The notes beneath the pieces are model-generated. The model had not been told where the DNA came from. It saw only the letters and a list, made by a program, of their open reading frames with translations, and searched no databases. A stretch of DNA of 64,000 nt from Kozakia baliensis. GTDB taxonomy: Bacteria; Pseudomonadota; Alphaproteobacteria; Acetobacterales; Acetobacteraceae. The translations under genes and the position numbers were made by a program. Location of the stretch: the NCBI RefSeq assembly GCF_001787335.1, contig NZ_CP014674.1, positions 310,001-374,000 on the forward strand, written 5' to 3'. Within the stretch, counting starts at the first letter, position 1. The number at the start of each line of letters is the position of its first letter. This document shows, one piece after another, positions 1-37,537 of the stretch.

Positions 1-625
1 TGTGGAACAGGCTGGAGAGTTCGTGGCTGACGATGACGATGGTCGCGCCCAGGCCGTCGCGCAGATTGAGAATGAGGTCGTCCAGCCGGGCGGAGGTGAT
101 AGGGTCCAGCCCGGCGGAAGGTTCGTCGAAGAACAAAATGTCCGGGTCCAGCGCGAGGGCGCGGGCGAGGCCTGCGCGTTTGCGCATACCGCCGCTGATC
201 TCCGAAGGATAGAGATCGATGGCCTGGAGCATGCCGACGAAGCCGAGCTTGAGTTCGACCAGGCGGCGGATGACAGGAGGCTTGAGATCCGTGAACATTT
301 GCAGCGGCAGGGCGATATTCTCGCCGATGGTCATGGAACTCCAGAGCGCGCCGCTTTGGAACAGCACCCCGAAGCGATGATTGATATCGGTGCGGTGGGC
401 GTTGGAGCCGGACCAGTAATCGTCGCCTTGAACGTGATATTGGCCGGTTTTGGGGCGGAGCAGGCCGATCATGCTTTTGAGCAGCGTGCTTTTGCCGCAG
501 CCCGAGCCACCCATGACGGCGAAGATGCTGCCGGGTTTGACGTCGAGCGAGATGTTTTTCTGGATGACTTTGGGGCCGAAGGCGAGGGTGACGTCGCGCA
601 GGGAGAGGACGGGTTGATCGGTCAT
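1..625 (-). CDS. mlaF: Mla-type phospholipid ABC transporter ATP-binding protein (partial, 3' end off window)
   Basis: This is the cytoplasmic ATPase of an MlaFEDB-like (Ttg2/Mkl) importer that moves phospholipids between the envelope membranes. The reverse-strand protein begins MTDQPVLSLRDVT at the ATG at 625. It has a Walker A motif GGSGCGKS near residue 40, a Q-loop (FQSGALWSSMT), the signature SGGMRKRAGLARAL typical of the Mla/Mkl subfamily, and Walker B DILFFDEPSAGLDP. The frame is open to the window edge, so the C-terminus and any mlaD or mlaC genes lie outside. The start sits 4 bases after the stop of the permease gene, so the two are surely co-transcribed. The family call is firm; the transported lipid is inferred from the family. 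Confidence 0.9.
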   Translation of the reverse strand, partial: MTDQPVLSLRDVTLAFGPKVIQKNISLDVKPGSIFAVMGGSGCGKSTLLKSMIGLLRPKTGQYHVQGDDYWSGSNAHRTDINHRFGVLFQSGALWSSMTIGENIALPLQMFTDLKPPVIRRLVELKLGFVGMLQAIDLYPSEISGGMRKRAGLARALALDPDILFFDEPSAGLDPITSARLDDLILNLRDGLGATIVIVSHELSSLFH

Positions 626-629
626 GGCG

Positions 630-1781
630 TCAGATTCCGAGCGCGTCGGCGATGACGGCGAAAACGGCGTCGATGGCGATGACGCCGACGATGCCGACGA
701 CGACCGCGCGCGTGGCGGCGATGCCGACATCGGCGGCGCTGCGCCCGGCTTTGAGGCCGATACGGCAACTCGTCAGACCGATGAACGCGCCGAACACGAT
801 GCTTTTGATGAAGCCGAAGATGAATTGACCGATGCCGAAGGCGGTGACCGTCTGGTGGAAATATCCTGCGACGGTGATGCTCAACATCGACACTGCCACC
901 ACGAAGCCGCCCAGCATGCCGATGAGACAGCCATAGAGATAGAGGAACGGCATGGTGACGATGAGGGAGAGAACCGAAGGCAGAATGAGATAGGTGGAGG
1001 TTGGGATACCGAACACGTTGAGCGCGTCGATTTCCTCATTGCCCTGCATGGTGGAGATGCGTGCGGCGTAAGCGCCGCCGGTGCGTCCGGCCATGATGAT
1101 GGCGGTCATGACGGCGGCCATTTCACGCACCATGGCGATGCCGACGAGGCTGGCGACGTAAATCCCGGCGGCGAATTTCTGAAGTTCGACTGCACCCACG
1201 AAGGCGAGGATCGCGCCGACCAGGAAGTTGACCACGCCTACGATGAGCAGTGCGGAAGGTCCGGCATCGTTGGTGTTGGAAAGCAGATCGACGAAGCGCA
1301 TGCGGCTGCGCCCGAGGAGGGCGAGGAAACCGCCTCGGGCGGTTTCGATGCCGAGTTCGGTGACCACGCCGACTTCCGTAAGGCTGGCGAGGGTGGAGTC
1401 GCCGATGGCTTCGAGGAAAGGAGTGCGTTTGGCGTGGGGGTTGGGCGGAGTTTCCGGCGCGTCCGGCAGGAGTTCGAGAAGTTGGCGCACCGGGGGCGGT
1501 AGGGTTTGGATATCGAGCGATAGTCCCGCATCGTGGACCACGCGCTTGAGGTCCCATAGGAAGGCGACCAGCCCGGTGTCCCATGCGCCGAGATCGTGCG
1601 TGTCGAACTTCACGGCGCTGTGGGGACGGGCGTTTTTCAGCCCGTCATCGGGAAATTGCGGGATGTTTCCGGTGCGGGCAAGCCAGACGCCGCTAAGGGT
1701 GAGGAGATTGGCGTCGTTTTGGGTATCGAGCCTCCATTGCGGAGGTTTGTCATTCTCTTTAGGCGCGTCACCGTGTCCCAA
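630..1781 (-). CDS. mlaE: MlaE-family ABC transporter permease with N-terminal STAS-like domain
   Basis: Inner-membrane permease of the Mla phospholipid transporter, 383 residues. The first ~110 residues (WRLDTQNDANLLTLSGVWLA onward) look like a STAS-type domain fused to the permease, a form in which the MlaB function is carried on the same chain. The MlaE domain follows from about residue 130. Family-typical stretches are GMVREMAAVMTAIIMAGRTG and GNEEIDALNVFGIPTSTYLI, then several hydrophobic helices to the C-terminus. It is 383 aa against about 260 for stand-alone MlaE, which the extra domain explains. The ATPase gene follows after 4 bases. The copper genes upstream are separated by about 90 bases with no clear terminator. 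Confidence 0.9.
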   Translation of the reverse strand: MGHGDAPKENDKPPQWRLDTQNDANLLTLSGVWLARTGNIPQFPDDGLKNARPHSAVKFDTHDLGAWDTGLVAFLWDLKRVVHDAGLSLDIQTLPPPVRQLLELLPDAPETPPNPHAKRTPFLEAIGDSTLASLTEVGVVTELGIETARGGFLALLGRSRMRFVDLLSNTNDAGPSALLIVGVVNFLVGAILAFVGAVELQKFAAGIYVASLVGIAMVREMAAVMTAIIMAGRTGGAYAARISTMQGNEEIDALNVFGIPTSTYLILPSVLSLIVTMPFLYLYGCLIGMLGGFVVAVSMLSITVAGYFHQTVTAFGIGQFIFGFIKSIVFGAFIGLTSCRIGLKAGRSAADVGIAATRAVVVGIVGVIAIDAVFAVIADALGI

Positions 1782-29256: not shown

Positions 29257-29853
29257 ATGACGAAGCTTTTGGTGTTGTATTATTCGACTTATGGCCATGT
29301 CGAGACGATGGCGAACGCCGTCGCGGAAGGTGCGCGGCGCGCAGGTGTCGAGGTGCAGGTCAAGCGTGTGCCTGAGCTAGTGCCGGAAGAAGTTGCCAGG
29401 GCCAATCATTTCAAGCTGGATCAGGCGGCTCCGATCGCTACTCCGGCGGAATTGATCGATTACGATGCGATTATCGTCGGTGCGCCGACGCGTTTCGGGC
29501 GTATCCCATCGCAAATGGCGCAATTTTGGGACCAAACCGGTGGCTTATGGGCCAAAGGCGCGTTGATCGGCAAGTTGGGCGCGGCTTTTACATCAACGGC
29601 AAGCCAGCATGGCGGCCAGGAAACGACATTATTTTCCATTCTCAGCAATCTCTTGCATCACGGCATGATTATTAGCGGATTGCCTTATAGTTTTGCGGGG
29701 CAGACTAAGCTCGACGAAGTTAGCGGCGGCACGCCTTATGGCGCTTCGACGATCGCTGGCGGAGACGGTTCGCGCGCGGTCAGCGAGAACGAACTTGCTG
29801 GTGCACGCTATCTCGGCGAGCATGTGGCCAATATTGCCAAGAAGCTTGCCTGA
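29257..29853 (+). CDS. wrbA: NAD(P)H:quinone oxidoreductase WrbA
   Basis: A 198-residue flavodoxin-like type IV quinone reductase that reduces quinones by two electrons, protecting against redox stress. The FMN loop is [38 protein letters not shown] and [19 protein letters not shown] are WrbA signatures, and [18 protein letters not shown] near the C-terminus is the WrbA insert. The start has a strong GAGGAGG about 8 bases upstream. It is monocistronic. A short GCCTG/CAGGC hairpin overlaps the stop but has only a short T run. Confidence 0.95.
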
Positions 29854-30030: not shown

Positions 30031-30059
30031 TCGTCATAAAACTGTCATACGCCCGTCAC
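30031..30059 (+). promoter_or_regulatory. Triple Pho box (PhoB-binding array) upstream of the porin
   Basis: Three 7-base repeats are spaced by 4 bases: TCGTCAT (30031-30037), CTGTCAT (30042-30048) and CCGTCAC (30053-30059). The 11-base period and sequence fit the PhoB site CTGTCAT-N4-CTGTCA(T/C), with one mismatch in each outer unit. The last repeat ends 82 bases before the porin ATG. This suggests induction under phosphate starvation. Confidence 0.75.
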
Positions 30060-30140: not shown

Positions 30141-31913
30141 ATGAAAAAAATCTCTCGCGTTCTACCGTTGTTGCTGGCATCGACCTCTTTCGGGTCCTTG
30201 TTCGCGGCGTCTGACGCCAAGGCGGCCAGCATGGATCAGATGGCGATTATGGAAAAGCAGATCCGCGCCATGCAATCTCAGCTTTCCACGATGCGCAAAG
30301 AACATGACCGCGAAATGAAGCGCGTTCATGAGCAACTTGCCCAACAGCGTAAAGCACAGGAACAGGATCCTTACGCCTATCACCGAGCCGTCACGGGGAA
30401 TGCACAAAACAATACTACTGCGCAATCAAGTGATGGTTTGCGATTGGCTGGCTTTCAAGTCGGTACGTCACTTCCAAGCACTCAGCAAACTAGTGCTTCC
30501 GCTTATGCAAGTACGCCCTACGGACAATTAACTGGCACGCCTTCCGCACGAGTATTAGATTTATATGGCCCTCTGCATCGTGGTCAGGTCCAAATCGGCG
30601 GCATCCGCGTTACACTTGGTGGTTATCTCGAAGCGGCAACGTTCTGGCGCAGTCGCAACTCGACGTCGGATATTTCATCACAATTCGGTGGCGGGGCGAT
30701 TCCGTTTGCCAACAATCCGAATTATCATACCAATGAGTTCCACCAATCTGAACGCCAGAGTCGCATTGCGATGCTTGTCGAGGGCGACATTACACACAAA
30801 TTGCGTGCTCAAGGATACATCGAGGTCGACTTTCAAGGCGCTGGTTCAGGATCCAATTCACGTCAGTCGAATTCCTACGTTCCTCGATCGCGTGTTTTCT
30901 ATGGTCAGTTGATCGATGACGCGGACGATCTTTACGTTCTTGGAGGCCAGAGCTGGTCGTTCCTAACGATGTTTAATCACGGCATGTCTGCGCGTGACGA
31001 GCAGGTGCCGCTCGTTATCGACGCACAATATGTACCAGGCTTCAACTGGACTCGAAATACTCAAGTCCGCATCGTCAAGGGGTTTGGTCATAGTCATTAC
31101 CATGTGGGTATATCGGTTGAAAACCCGCAGCAAGTTATCTCAGTTGGATCGGGGGGCAATTATCTGCCGCCAGGCGCAGTTGCTGACACCTATCAGAATG
31201 CTGGTGGCAACGTTTTCAATCCGTCGACGAACTATTCGACAGATGTTGCGCCGGATATCGTTGGAAAGGTCGCTGCTGATCCGGGATGGGGTCACTACGA
31301 AATGTATGGGCTACTGCGTTTTCCACATAGCCGCGTTTCTTATTTGGGGTCTGGTCGTAGTAAAACAGATGTGGCGGGCGGCGGAGGTGCCGGGATGGTG
31401 TTGCCTCTGGAAAAAGCACATAAACTCAATTTCCAGGTATCCGGCCTTGTCGGCACGGGTATAGGCCGCTACGGCACGTCGAATATGCCCGATGTTACGA
31501 TGGGTTCGGACGGGCATATTAAGCCGCTACCTGCTGCGAACGTCTTGGCTGGTCTCTATGGAAACCCAGTTAAAAGTTTGCAACTCTATGCATATGGCGG
31601 CATGGAGATGACCCGTTCACGCTCCTCTTTCAATGCGGGTGGCAAACATTATGGCTACGGTAATCCGCTGTATAATGTATCCGGCTGTGATATCGAAGGT
31701 GCGGCAGCAAGCACATGCCAAGCAAGTATAAATAAGGTTGTACAGGGTACGGCGGGTTTATGGTGGGACTACCTGCATGGAGACTATGGGACTATCCGTT
31801 TGGGTGCTCAGTATTCTTACACTTATATCACGTCGTTTAGCGGTGTAGGAGGCACGCCTCACACGAACGATAATATGGTATTTTTCTCCATGCGTTATCT
31901 TCCGTTCCAATGA
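30141..31913 (+). CDS. Outer-membrane porin with N-terminal coiled coil (DcaP-like, Pho-controlled)
   Basis: A protein of about 590 residues. I chose the ATG at 30141 (MKKISRVLPLLLASTSFG ... AKA signal peptide); the longer frame to 30096 is unlikely. After the signal comes a coiled-coil helix (MDQMAIMEKQIRAMQSQL), then a beta-barrel with GIRVTLGGYLEAATFW, RQSRIAMLVEGDITHKLRAQ and YVLGGQSWSFLTMFNHGMS, ending with YLPFQ. The order (coiled coil, then GGY barrel with SR-x-AM) fits the DcaP-like trimeric porins; I cannot confirm the family. It lies behind a Pho-box array and in front of an OprO/P C-terminal remnant, so it may have replaced a phosphate porin and now serves as one. No clear Shine-Dalgarno was seen. 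Confidence 0.75.
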   Translation: MKKISRVLPLLLASTSFGSLFAASDAKAASMDQMAIMEKQIRAMQSQLSTMRKEHDREMKRVHEQLAQQRKAQEQDPYAYHRAVTGNAQNNTTAQSSDGLRLAGFQVGTSLPSTQQTSASAYASTPYGQLTGTPSARVLDLYGPLHRGQVQIGGIRVTLGGYLEAATFWRSRNSTSDISSQFGGGAIPFANNPNYHTNEFHQSERQSRIAMLVEGDITHKLRAQGYIEVDFQGAGSGSNSRQSNSYVPRSRVFYGQLIDDADDLYVLGGQSWSFLTMFNHGMSARDEQVPLVIDAQYVPGFNWTRNTQVRIVKGFGHSHYHVGISVENPQQVISVGSGGNYLPPGAVADTYQNAGGNVFNPSTNYSTDVAPDIVGKVAADPGWGHYEMYGLLRFPHSRVSYLGSGRSKTDVAGGGGAGMVLPLEKAHKLNFQVSGLVGTGIGRYGTSNMPDVTMGSDGHIKPLPAANVLAGLYGNPVKSLQLYAYGGMEMTRSRSSFNAGGKHYGYGNPLYNVSGCDIEGAAASTCQASINKVVQGTAGLWWDYLHGDYGTIRLGAQYSYTYITSFSGVGGTPHTNDNMVFFSMRYLPFQ

Positions 31914-31941
31914 TTGATCATCGCTAATTGAGAATAATTGT

Positions 31942-32018
31942 AGTGATCCCAAAACATGATAATCGCGCCCTCCGGAGCTAGATGAATCTACGTTATCTTG
32001 AACAGGGATCACTTTTTT
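31942..32018 (+). terminator. Long-loop terminator after the porin
   Basis: AGTGATCCC (31942-31950) pairs with GGGATCACT (32005-32013) followed by TTTTTT. The inner GATAA/TTATC pair extends the stem. The loop is unusually long, but the T-tract and position right after the porin stop support termination. Confidence 0.6.
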
Positions 32019-32053
32019 AATAAACTCTATCAGGCAATCTAGCTTTATAAACA

Positions 32054-32368
32054 TATTAGCAAAGCGTGTTCTCGGCTCCTGGCGTGAAAGATACTCAGGA
32101 ATTCAACCCGGCGCACAACCAGTGGGGCGCGTTGGAAATCACCGGTCGTTACAGCGTGTCGGACATGAAAGGCCGCCTCGGCTACAAGGATGGTGTGCGT
32201 GGCGGCCAGCAGACGGTATGGGCTGGCGGCTTTAACTGGTATCCGAACCGCCATTTCCGCTTCATGGTGGATTACAACCACTTCATCGTCAGCCGCACTT
32301 CCGCCGCGACCAACATCTTCAGCAGAACCGGCAACTCCATCGCTGCGCGTATCCAAGCAGCGTTCTAA
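32054..32368 (+). pseudogene. C-terminal remnant of an OprO/OprP-type phosphate-selective porin
   Basis: About 100 codons without a natural start: a TAG stop precedes, and the first frame codon is GTG. It reads VFSAPGVKDTQEFNPAHNQ, WGALEITGRYSVSDM, VWAGGFNWYPNRHFRFMVDY, NHFIVSR and ends IAARIQAAF. The segment WGALE--RYS, GGFNWYPN--FRFMVDYNH is the closing part of the Porin_O_P family (PF07396), including the C-terminal Phe. No ribosome site and no signal are present, and the porin terminator lies in front, so it is not expected to be translated. It is the tail of a phosphate porin whose front seems replaced by the 30141 porin. Confidence 0.82.
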
Positions 32369-32380
32369 ACCCAGGAAAGA

Positions 32381-32415
32381 GCGTCTCGCGGTGGGCTTCC
32401 TCCGTCGCGAGACGC
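32381..32415 (+). terminator. Hairpin after the OprO/P remnant
   Basis: GCGTCTCGCG ... CGCGAGACGC, a perfect 10-base stem 12 bases after the remnant's stop. It lacks a good T-tract, so it may be a relic of the old porin's terminator. Confidence 0.55.
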
Positions 32416-32494
32416 ATTCTATTCCCCTGACGAAAGCAAACTTTTACGCTTTCGCGCGCTTACTCTAGAAGTCATGAAACTTATGGAGTGCGCA

Positions 32495-32935
32495 ATGTCT
32501 CGAATTTCACACGCAGCGATGGCGTTAACGCTGGCATCGGCCCTCTCGGTCGGAGCTGCTTCCGCGCAGAGTATTCCGTCCTTCGGCGGGCAATCTCAGG
32601 GCAATGCTCTTTCGAATGCAACAGGCGGCGCTGCCGGTCTGTTGGGCGGTGGACTGCCGAGCCTTTCATCGTCGAGCGTGGGTAATGTAACGGGACTTCT
32701 CAGTTACTGCGCACAGAACAATTATCTGCAAGGCGACAGCGCACTTTCCGCGACCTCGGCCGTCAATCAGCTTACCAAGAAACCAGGCGTGACGGATTCT
32801 CCCACTTATGCGGCGGGAACGCAGGGCCAGCTTCAGACGGGCAATGACAATATGTTTTCGCTTTCGAGCCTGAAGAGCGGATTGAAAACACGTGTTTGTA
32901 ATATGGTTCTCGATAAGGCAAAATCGTTTCTCTAA
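32495..32935 (+). CDS. DUF2501 secreted protein (YjjA-like)
   Basis: A 146-residue exported protein. I chose the ATG at 32495 because GGAG ends 6 bases before it; the in-frame ATGs upstream have none. It has a signal peptide (ISHAAMALTLASALSVGAAS-AQ), then a Gly/Ser-rich linker, then the DUF2501 core: NVTGLLSYCAQNNYL, SPTYAAGTQGQLQTG, LKSGLKTRVCNMVLDKAKSF, with the paired Cys residues of the family (one in SYCAQ, one in RVCNM) that may form a disulfide. E. coli YjjA is the known member; its function is unclear. Confidence 0.85.
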   Translation: MSRISHAAMALTLASALSVGAASAQSIPSFGGQSQGNALSNATGGAAGLLGGGLPSLSSSSVGNVTGLLSYCAQNNYLQGDSALSATSAVNQLTKKPGVTDSPTYAAGTQGQLQTGNDNMFSLSSLKSGLKTRVCNMVLDKAKSFL

Positions 32936-33403: not shown

Positions 33404-33418
33404 CGAGCATTACCTTTA

Positions 33419-34348
33419 GAGACCGATCCGAAAGTTTTTCAACCCTGACAATGCCTTGCTGTCCGTCGTGTGAGCATTCGGATTGAGGCGATCAATGTCC
33501 ATGCGGTTGAGGAAGCAATGGATTGTTCCCAATCTTTGGCGAGCCGCCTGCATCGTCTCAGCCATGCGAATGTCCGTTCCACCACCCAGCGACGCGGCAG
33601 GATCTGAAAACCCTTCACCGTATCGGACCGCCTGATGATTTCGAGGGTCCATTTTCCCATGGAGGCGAGCGCGGATCGCAATTTGTCGCCAGCATAGCCG
33701 CCATCAGCGAAGATGTGGCGCAGCCAGGGAAAGCGCCTACGTATCGCTGCCAGAACATCAACGGCCCCATCACGGTCCTGGATATCAGCGGCATGAACGA
33801 GGAGAAAGATCAGGAAGCCGCAGGTATCCGTCACGATATGGCGCTTGCGGCCCTTGACCTTCTTCCCCGCGTCATAGCCCGAAATCCCGCCGCTTTCCGT
33901 GGTTTTCACCGACTGGCTGTCAATCACGCCCGCGCTCGGAGAGGCGTCACGTCCCTCGATCTCGCGCAGGCTCATGACCAGCACCGTATTCATGACCTCG
34001 AACACTCCGGCATCACGCCAGGCGTAAAAATAGCGCCTGATGGTCGAGACCGGCGGAAAGCATTTCGGCAGCAGACGCCACGCACACCCGGCCGAGGCTA
34101 TGTAGAGCATCGCATTGACCACCTCGCGCATATCCGTCGTGCGCGGACGACCGCCCCGTTTCGCCGGGGGCACAAATGGCATGATCAAAGTCCACTCCCC
34201 GTCCGTCATGTCCGATGGATATCGCAATCTTTCCCGGCTATACTCGCGCCGGGCAATACCAGTCCATGTCACCATTCACTCCATCTCTCTGCAAAGACGG
34301 ATGAATCACAACAGGCTGGTATTGTTCAAAAACTTTCGGATCGGGCTC
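33419..34348 (-). mobile_element. IS5-family insertion sequence (complete, 930 bp, TTA duplication)
   Basis: Terminal inverted repeats GAGACCGATCCGAAAGTTTT (left) and GAGCCCGATCCGAAAGTTTT (right, reverse complement) differ at one base. The element is flanked by TTA at 33416-33418 and TTA at 34349-34351, the TNA-type target duplication usual for the IS1031-like group of IS5. One transposase fills it. Intact ends and duplication suggest recent insertion. Confidence 0.93.
33439..34275 (-). CDS. IS5-family transposase
   Basis: A 278-residue DDE transposase. RYPSDMTDGEWTLIMPFVP and GCAWRLLPKCFPPVSTIRRY are IS5-type starts. Catalytic residues are the Asp in SAGVIDSQSVKTTE, the Asp in FADGGYAGDKLRSAL and the Glu in RRWVVERTFAWLRRCRRLAK. 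The single ORF is intact, so the element may be mobile. Confidence 0.93.
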   Translation of the reverse strand: MVTWTGIARREYSRERLRYPSDMTDGEWTLIMPFVPPAKRGGRPRTTDMREVVNAMLYIASAGCAWRLLPKCFPPVSTIRRYFYAWRDAGVFEVMNTVLVMSLREIEGRDASPSAGVIDSQSVKTTESGGISGYDAGKKVKGRKRHIVTDTCGFLIFLLVHAADIQDRDGAVDVLAAIRRRFPWLRHIFADGGYAGDKLRSALASMGKWTLEIIRRSDTVKGFQILPRRWVVERTFAWLRRCRRLAKDWEQSIASSTAWTLIASIRMLTRRTARHCQG

Positions 34349-34351
34349 TTA

Positions 34352-36112: not shown

Positions 36113-37537
36113 ATGATGCGTCAGTCTTCCTTCGCCTATATGCGTTTTCTTGGTTTATCTCTCATCACCGTGATGGTTTTCGCGCCATCGGCTTATGCGC
36201 AATATCGCGGACCGATTTCGGAAAACGCGCCGTCATTTTCGCTCGATACGCCGACATCCTATGAGAACACGCCCTTTACGCCGCCGGTCGAACATATGTC
36301 CAAATTTTGGGAGGATGTTCAAAAACGCTGGATAAAACACGGTGTTTCGGTTGTGCTGGATTATACGAGCGAAAGCGCCATGGCGTTGAATGGCGGCGGG
36401 GGTAGCCGGGCCGCTTATGCGCACCAGATTGGGGCGCAGTTGGATATCGATTGGGAAAAACTCGTCGGCTGGCATGGCTTTCGCACGCATACGGTTTTCA
36501 TCAACCGTGCGGGTCATAGCCTTGCCAAGGATTTCGGCGATCAGTCGGTGAATGGTTTGCAGGAAATTTATGGCGGTAATGCCGATATCGGCATCAAATT
36601 CGTCTATGTTTATGCAACGCAAGATTTAATGCATGATCGGATGCAAATCGCGTTCGGAAAAATGCCGGTCAATATCGATTTTTCGGCATCGCCTCTCTAC
36701 TGCACGTTCATGAACAATATGATTTGCGGTAGCCCTAAAACGCTACGTCGTGGAACGGGCGGGTTTGCGAATTATCCCGGTTCGGCATTCGGTACGCGTA
36801 TTCGTTATTGGACGCTGCATGGCGTCTATTTCCAAGCGGGGCTTTACGGGAGCAACCCGGATCTGACGACGCCAAAATACGATCGCTCCGGCTTTAATTG
36901 GAGCCTGGACCGGTATCGCGGTGTTTATATTCCGGCGGAAATCGGGCTTATTCCGTCATTCGGAAAAGATAATCTCGTCGGGCATTACAAATTTGGATTT
37001 GCCTACGACTCGACCAATTACAGCGATAATTATTGGGATGTGAACGGTAACCCTCTGGCATTGACGGGGGTTGCCCCGCGCCAAAAAAACGGGCGAACGC
37101 AAGTTTGGCTGGAAGGCGATCAGATGCTGATCCGCAATGGGTCCGGCCCTTTGCATGGTTTGTATGCCATGGCTGGTTTGATCCGCAACGATGCGGTCAG
37201 TTCGCCCTATCTTTATCAATATTATGCGGGCTTCGTGGATCGTGGATTTTTTAAAGCGCGCCCGAAAGACATGTTGGGCATTATGTTCACGACGACTACG
37301 GTCAGCCCCGCCGTGCGCGCAACACAGAACCTGCTTTATGCGCGGGGTTCACGTAAGTTGCCGCAGAACGCAAGCTTCCCACAAAGCCAGGTGACGGCGA
37401 TCGAATTGTCCTACGTGATTCATGTTTGCGAAGGGCTATCGGTTCAACCGGATTATCAGCACATTATGCGCCCAAACCTGCAAAGCAATAAAAAGGATAT
37501 CGACGCCGTTGGGCTTAAAATCCATGCGGTGCTGTAG
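36113..37537 (+). CDS. OprB-type carbohydrate porin
   Basis: A 474-residue outer-membrane sugar porin. Signal peptide (FLGLSLITVMVFAPSAYAQ), then an OprB-like barrel: FWEDVQKRWIKHGVSVVLDY, VNGLQEIYGGNADIGIKFVY, IAFGKMPVNIDFSASPLYC, GSAFGTRIRYWTLHGVYFQA, and the closing TAIELSYVIHVCEGLSVQPD. CTFMNNMICG is a cysteine pair seen in AAB OprB-like proteins. Length is normal. OprB channels admit glucose and polyols. A related truncated copy lies at 61621-62902. Confidence 0.88.
   Translation: MMRQSSFAYMRFLGLSLITVMVFAPSAYAQYRGPISENAPSFSLDTPTSYENTPFTPPVEHMSKFWEDVQKRWIKHGVSVVLDYTSESAMALNGGGGSRAAYAHQIGAQLDIDWEKLVGWHGFRTHTVFINRAGHSLAKDFGDQSVNGLQEIYGGNADIGIKFVYVYATQDLMHDRMQIAFGKMPVNIDFSASPLYCTFMNNMICGSPKTLRRGTGGFANYPGSAFGTRIRYWTLHGVYFQAGLYGSNPDLTTPKYDRSGFNWSLDRYRGVYIPAEIGLIPSFGKDNLVGHYKFGFAYDSTNYSDNYWDVNGNPLALTGVAPRQKNGRTQVWLEGDQMLIRNGSGPLHGLYAMAGLIRNDAVSSPYLYQYYAGFVDRGFFKARPKDMLGIMFTTTTVSPAVRATQNLLYARGSRKLPQNASFPQSQVTAIELSYVIHVCEGLSVQPDYQHIMRPNLQSNKKDIDAVGLKIHAVL

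Follow-up and report, generated by a model that had tools for sequence, protein, structure and literature searches.

A D-type porin gene with its own Pho box and the 3' remnant of an OprO/P porin gene in Kozakia baliensis, and signs of barrel exchange at porin loci in related genera

The 64,000-nucleotide stretch of Kozakia baliensis DNA analysed in the current study (contig NZ_CP014674.1; hereafter the window) probably carries an inherited, Pho-controlled porin gene; behind it lies what is left of the 3' end of an OprO/P porin gene, now decayed, that perhaps once formed a tandem with it. The family of the first porin is referred to here as D-type, a label of our own. An initial annotation of this DNA had reported a porin, an OprO/P remnant and a Pho box, and this observation was borne out, with correct coordinates. 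The parts of the locus are as follows.

30031-30059, plus strand: Pho box of three 7-mer half-sites with an 11-bp period, from 110 to 82 nt upstream of the ATG
30141-31913, plus strand: D-type porin-like gene (590 amino acids), initially annotated as a DcaP-like porin
30141-30425, plus strand: N-terminal module of this gene, a signal peptide and a coiled-coil-like stretch, both judged by eye
30561-31910, plus strand: C-terminal, predicted barrel region (residues 141-590), with 76-82% identity to ten named orthologues
31942-32018, plus strand: terminator-like hairpin (folding z-score -3.2) with six consecutive T at its end, one of them (the first) within the stem
32058-32368, plus strand: remnant of an OprO/P gene (last approximately 100 codons), recognised by a PF07396 match and by DNA similarity to intact OprO/P genes
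32381-32415, plus strand: stem-loop 3' of the remnant's stop codon, from a terminator scan (2 such sites found, 2.7 expected from shuffles)

The open frame of the remnant (32066-32368, 100 codons) matched positions 289-370 of the 370 positions of PF07396 (E 1e-14); no other match to PF07396 was found in the 3.5-Mb genome. With 55 bits it passed the curated cut-off of 20.9, which makes it a member of the phosphate-selective porins OprP and OprO (PDB 2O4V, 4RJW), but it is not a full-length barrel with a signal peptide. The solved structures of OprP and OprO were matched by the barrel profile of 11 intact OprO/P relatives. In the longest alignment, DNA similarity to intact OprO/P genes ran from 32058 to 32374. 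The remnant lies on the same strand as the porin and in line with it, 144 bp past its stop codon. It has no ATG, and by eye no ribosome-binding site is evident for its GTG at 32066, in agreement with the initial description of about 100 C-terminal codons without start or ribosome site. The remnant keeps 36 of the 37 columns that are invariant among 12 intact homologues, and its frame contains no internal stop; it therefore reads as a truncated, little decayed 3' end of an OprO/P gene. As between intact genes, differences were most common at third codon positions (12 of 12 comparisons). Either a recent loss or a slow decay would fit this state.

The open frame and the 36 conserved columns could also be read as those of a gene still in use, whose product might be, for example, a small peptide of the outer membrane or one with a regulatory role. 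This is highly improbable: neither a start signal nor a signal peptide was evident by eye, the frame covers only a small part of a barrel, and it is preceded by the terminator-like hairpin at 31942-32018. This hairpin, between porin and remnant, was not called by the terminator scan, which admits only loops of 3-8. It was also considered as a mobile miniature element and rejected, since it has a single copy in the genome. The stem-loop at 32381-32415 is possibly the old terminator of the remnant.

The D-type protein had no match in Pfam, none in NCBIfam and, as a single sequence, none in the PDB; the only PDB match of its profile was an unrelated chain at chance level (E 0.37). An AlphaFold prediction of the D-type barrel (window protein and ten named orthologues) gave a pLDDT of 28, too low to read a fold or a phosphate-binding arginine ladder from it. 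The size of the protein, its signal peptide and its C-terminal aromatic residues suggest that it forms an outer-membrane barrel. Unlike OprP and OprO, this barrel shows no relation to PF07396 by sequence or profile. According to PMC12338516, the DcaP family of Acinetobacter is a trimeric, 16-stranded barrel with an N-terminal periplasmic coiled coil, and DcaP porins are tied to carboxylic acids. By eye, the D-type protein has a similar layout, with a coiled-coil-like stretch at the N-terminus ahead of a region the size of a barrel, but no Pfam, NCBIfam or meaningful PDB match related it to DcaP (DcaP models are assumed to be present in these libraries), and the label DcaP-like was not confirmed. 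The Pho box of the window gene points to phosphorus rather than to carboxylic acids.

A scan of named genomes found relatives of the porin at 11 loci (eight Asaia, one Swaminathania, one Brytella and one Acidomonas), with 66-76% identity in the best segment. The nearest fronts were those of Asaia, Swaminathania and G024, and the nearest barrels (77-82%) those of Acidomonas, Asaia and G024. More distant homologues (35-51% identity over 72-100% of the query) occur on plasmids of Acetobacter ascendens, Methylocella tundrae and Legionella lytica, and all five plasmid records are annotated as hypothetical protein. K. baliensis itself (G000), the sole genome of its genus in the sample, has two further D-type barrels (C1:907950-909281 and 1390326-1391669), which are 39-40% identical to that of the window; these matches omit the first 140-150 or so residues of the query. 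The D-type gene of Asaia platycodi (L134, 10001-11753) is broken into three frames.

The Pho box of the window (TCGTCAT-AAAA-CTGTCAT-ACGC-CCGTCAC) matched the half-site consensus at 17 of 21 positions. It was the sole site with a score of at least 16 when both strands of the window were scanned, and its score was never reached when the 260-nt upstream region was shuffled 5000 times by dinucleotides, upholding the initial report of a Pho box ahead of the porin. The segment 30033-30074, which spans most of the box, is 90% identical to DNA of Brytella acorum. All ten scored named orthologues have a Pho box (score 15-19 of 21), placed at -107 to -108 relative to the start that was chosen; the eleventh, the frame-broken gene of A. 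platycodi, was dropped by a filter and is therefore unscored. A box is also present in G024 and G047. The N-terminal 100 residues of the window protein are closest to those of D-type proteins and not to OprO/P proteins outside genus g54. Since the box is kept before the D-type gene in ten of ten scored orthologues and the N-terminus is D-type, it reads as a real Pho box belonging to the D-type gene and not as a leftover of OprO/P.

Over all scored rows, a Pho score of at least 15 of 21 was reached by 22 of 37 D-type rows (36 distinct, L133 and L149 being one locus) and 26 of 40 OprO/P rows, against 1.1% of 3000 random stretches from the same loci. No box was found by this measure for the other 15 D-type rows, which include the pstS-linked genes of g32, g61, g66, g70 and g101 and distant genes such as those of g32, g46, g61 and g101; some of these misses stem from wrongly chosen starts. 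A conserved PhoB box upstream, as expected of a Pho regulon member, is thus found in the close orthologues and not across all D-type genes.

These data bear on the mechanism initially proposed for the window, in which an OprO/P gene kept its promoter and its 3' end in place and another barrel, here the D-type, replaced the body. Because front, barrel and box are common to its D-type relatives, the window gene is most likely not a D-type barrel grafted on an OprO/P promoter; vertical inheritance of the gene together with its own Pho box is most likely. No piece of OprO/P was found in the fetched flanks of the 11 named D-type orthologues. An intact OprO/P gene between this Pho box and the DUF2501 gene (see below), which the initial annotation had looked to in relatives as support, was found at none of the fetched loci, and nor were full D-type and OprO/P genes side by side, which it had named as counter-evidence. 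An in-place replacement at the window is quite unlikely. Two observations in relatives speak for it: a like event in genome G299 as compared with its sister G320, and OprO/P barrels with D-type N-termini in genus g54, so that a hybrid intermediate could have existed at the window. G299, however, has itself no OprO/P tail.

Such events were seen where the porin gene stands next to pstS. The window D-type gene resembles the OprO/P relatives in having a Pho box, and D-type genes of relatives often lie beside pstS. In draws from the family, OprO/P C-termini (E 1e-15) were found in 77 of 397 genomes and close D-type relatives (E 1e-150) in 48 of 397. Several genomes, including Asaia, carry both at separate loci, so the two are not mutually exclusive family-wide. 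In genus g54, at the same thresholds, seven genomes had OprO/P, six had D-type and none had both (genomes with neither are outside this count). All 13 fetched g54 loci had the order pstS, porin, ugd (UDP-glucose dehydrogenase), with an extra gene or a 2-3 kb gap separating porin from ugd in several. The slot held one D-type gene in G053, G130, G179, G249, G377 and G389, one OprO/P gene in G278, G301, G338, G352 and G365, and two OprO/P genes in G217 and G322. In genus g42 the order phoB, phoR, pstS, porin was present at ten of 13 fetched loci, with D-type in G214, G246 (split by an insert), G299 and G387 and OprO/P in G041, G173, G276, G320, G363 and G375; the remaining three loci (L215-L217) hold another OprO/P gene, with no adjacent pstS.

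Two slot genes are themselves interrupted. An insert of about 0.9 kb (L210, 9366-10294) interrupts the D-type gene of G246 and is absent from G214 (L152), a near-identical sister; its flanks overlap for a short distance, which points to a target-site repeat. In G168, the OprO/P gene at the phoBR-pstS slot (L162, 9438-11106) is split into two frames, and D-type copies are located on contigs C1 and C2. For the Acetobacter ascendens plasmid copy, scored in this genome, the best Pho box reached 14.

The two barrel types share no detectable sequence similarity, and their profiles had an hhalign probability of 0.4%. The fronts gave a different picture in a comparison of 50 porins (18 D-type, 32 OprO/P). 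Over the first 100 residues, g54 OprO/P proteins scored a mean of 105 bits against g54 D-type proteins (54 pairs) and 15 bits against other OprO/P proteins (207 pairs), whereas their barrels scored 7 bits against g54 D-type and 549 bits against other OprO/P. Since the N-terminal and barrel scores run in reverse order, the g54 OprO/P genes are, by their sequences, OprO/P barrels behind a D-type front. In 45 of the 54 pairs of a D-type and an OprO/P gene from g54, DNA similarity at the front ended 227-243 nt past the ATG, at about codon 78, behind the coiled coil; it extended to 258 nt in four pairs and ended at 131-212 in five. In some pairs the similarity started no later than the ATG; in many it started only around codon 27. 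Between G130 and G217, DNA similarity resumed just before ugd. In g42, G299 and G320 were 95% identical across phoB, phoR, pstS, the Pho box and an OprO/P-type N-terminus, followed by a D-type barrel in G299 and an OprO/P barrel in G320, and identity resumed downstream at 93%. For G387 and G214, identity to OprO/P-bearing genomes stopped at pstS, so here the whole porin gene differs.

According to trees of neighbouring genes, the barrel type must have changed two or more times in each genus; branches with good support forced one change in g54, where the tree had one long-branched row and three poorly resolved inner branches, and two in g42. These results support a swap of D-type and OprO/P barrels at the pstS-linked slot of two related genera, with promoter and N-terminal module kept in some cases. 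The initially proposed replacement of a porin body is most likely wrong in detail for the window locus, and holds as a process in the family. The N-terminal module of the window gene (30141-30425) is of the kind exchanged between barrels in these relatives.

Because slot and front are shared and barrels were exchanged, the D-type protein is likely to do the job of OprO/P under phosphate starvation. A broader and more tentative proposal is that acetic acid bacteria exchange OprO/P and D-type barrels as cassettes, in both directions, behind a front made up of Pho promoter, signal peptide and coiled coil, that D-type stands in for OprO/P, and that the window is the fossil of one such exchange, with the displaced OprO/P tail left behind. 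Among the papers listed by searches of the literature, no title or abstract opening dealt with porins of either type in acetic acid bacteria, or with such a barrel exchange. These data give a likely role, as an outer-membrane channel of phosphate starvation, to a protein family that matched no model in Pfam or NCBIfam. They also provide natural experiments, in the form of evolutionary grafts of one barrel family behind the front of another; the coiled coil as a transferable trimerisation or folding front, and convergence of two unrelated barrels on phosphate selectivity, can now be tested. The window itself would be more ordinary, with one working porin and one dead neighbour.

The simplest account of the window is loss of a tandem OprO/P gene, because tandem porins occur at the relatives' slot (OprO/P-OprO/P in G217 and G322, D-D in G069) and the porin is followed by the remnant in the same orientation. 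PhoB would turn on the inherited D-type gene from its own Pho box under phosphate scarcity, the remnant would be the rest of a second porin gene whose front was deleted, and the D-type barrel would now alone perform the outer-membrane step of phosphate or phosphate-ester uptake. It counts against tandem loss that none of the 37 scanned D-type loci (36 distinct, some cut by contig ends) keeps an OprO/P tail, that no intact tandem of D-type and OprO/P was found in any genome, and that the flanks have no shared gene order with the relatives' porin loci. The surroundings of the two genes are as follows.

29257-29853, plus strand: upstream neighbour, a flavodoxin-like gene (PF03358, PF00258), presumably of WrbA type
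32474-32935, plus strand: downstream neighbour, a DUF2501 gene (PF10696)
33418-34350: IS5-like element with similar inverted ends (by eye), approximately 1 kb downstream of the remnant; its DDE transposase gene (PF01609/PF13340) is at 33439-34275, minus strand
36113-37537: OprB family porin (PF04966, E 2e-82), 3.7 kb downstream of the remnant

The flavodoxin-like gene had no match in the D-type orthologue loci examined, and no porin match was found at the 13 fetched DUF2501 loci of relatives. When 22 window genes (porin and remnant included) were compared with the relatives' loci, only scattered single genes of the flanks matched: an alcohol dehydrogenase (window 45827, 53-64% identity) 4-5 kb from OprO/P in G029, G168 and G241, and a 113-amino-acid ORF (window 41626, 58%) and window 46861 (41%) about 6-7 kb upstream of OprO/P in G217. 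Other matches were the porins and DUF2501 themselves, one transposase (48%) and weak family-level matches (25-40%). Synteny was rejected as a means of placing the remnant's old locus, the matches being too scattered. Since only such single genes match, the remnant may owe its place to an unrelated rearrangement, which put a truncated OprO/P gene behind a porin with which it had no common history. The transposase gene starting 1.1 kb downstream, and an OprO/P sequence that is not of the Asaia type, are also in favour of this; but chance would be unlikely to place two porins of one regulon in line with 144 bp between them, and the stretch 31915-32065 occurs once in the genome, which argues against a multicopy element at the junction. 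Such a chance neighbourhood is considered rather unlikely, and loss of a tandem OprO/P gene behind the inherited D-type gene is preferred.

In the K. baliensis genome, pstS, phoB and phoR lie side by side with no porin adjacent; a prolyl oligopeptidase-type gene adjoins pstS, and no porin was found within the 20 kb fetched near ugd. If the slot arrangement is ancestral, the window porin has left the pstS slot. The ancestry of the remnant is unclear, because the OprO/P of Asaia, the nearest named group, is located at another locus and is only 48-54% identical to it; for this reason it was rejected as the remnant's orthologue. The Asaia gene adjoins genes, presumably mla-like, whose orthologues (74-82% identity) open the window, about 30 kb from the remnant. 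In G084 (L182, 8239-13711), an OprO/P gene faces genes with orthologues (74-82%) at window positions 1-1613.
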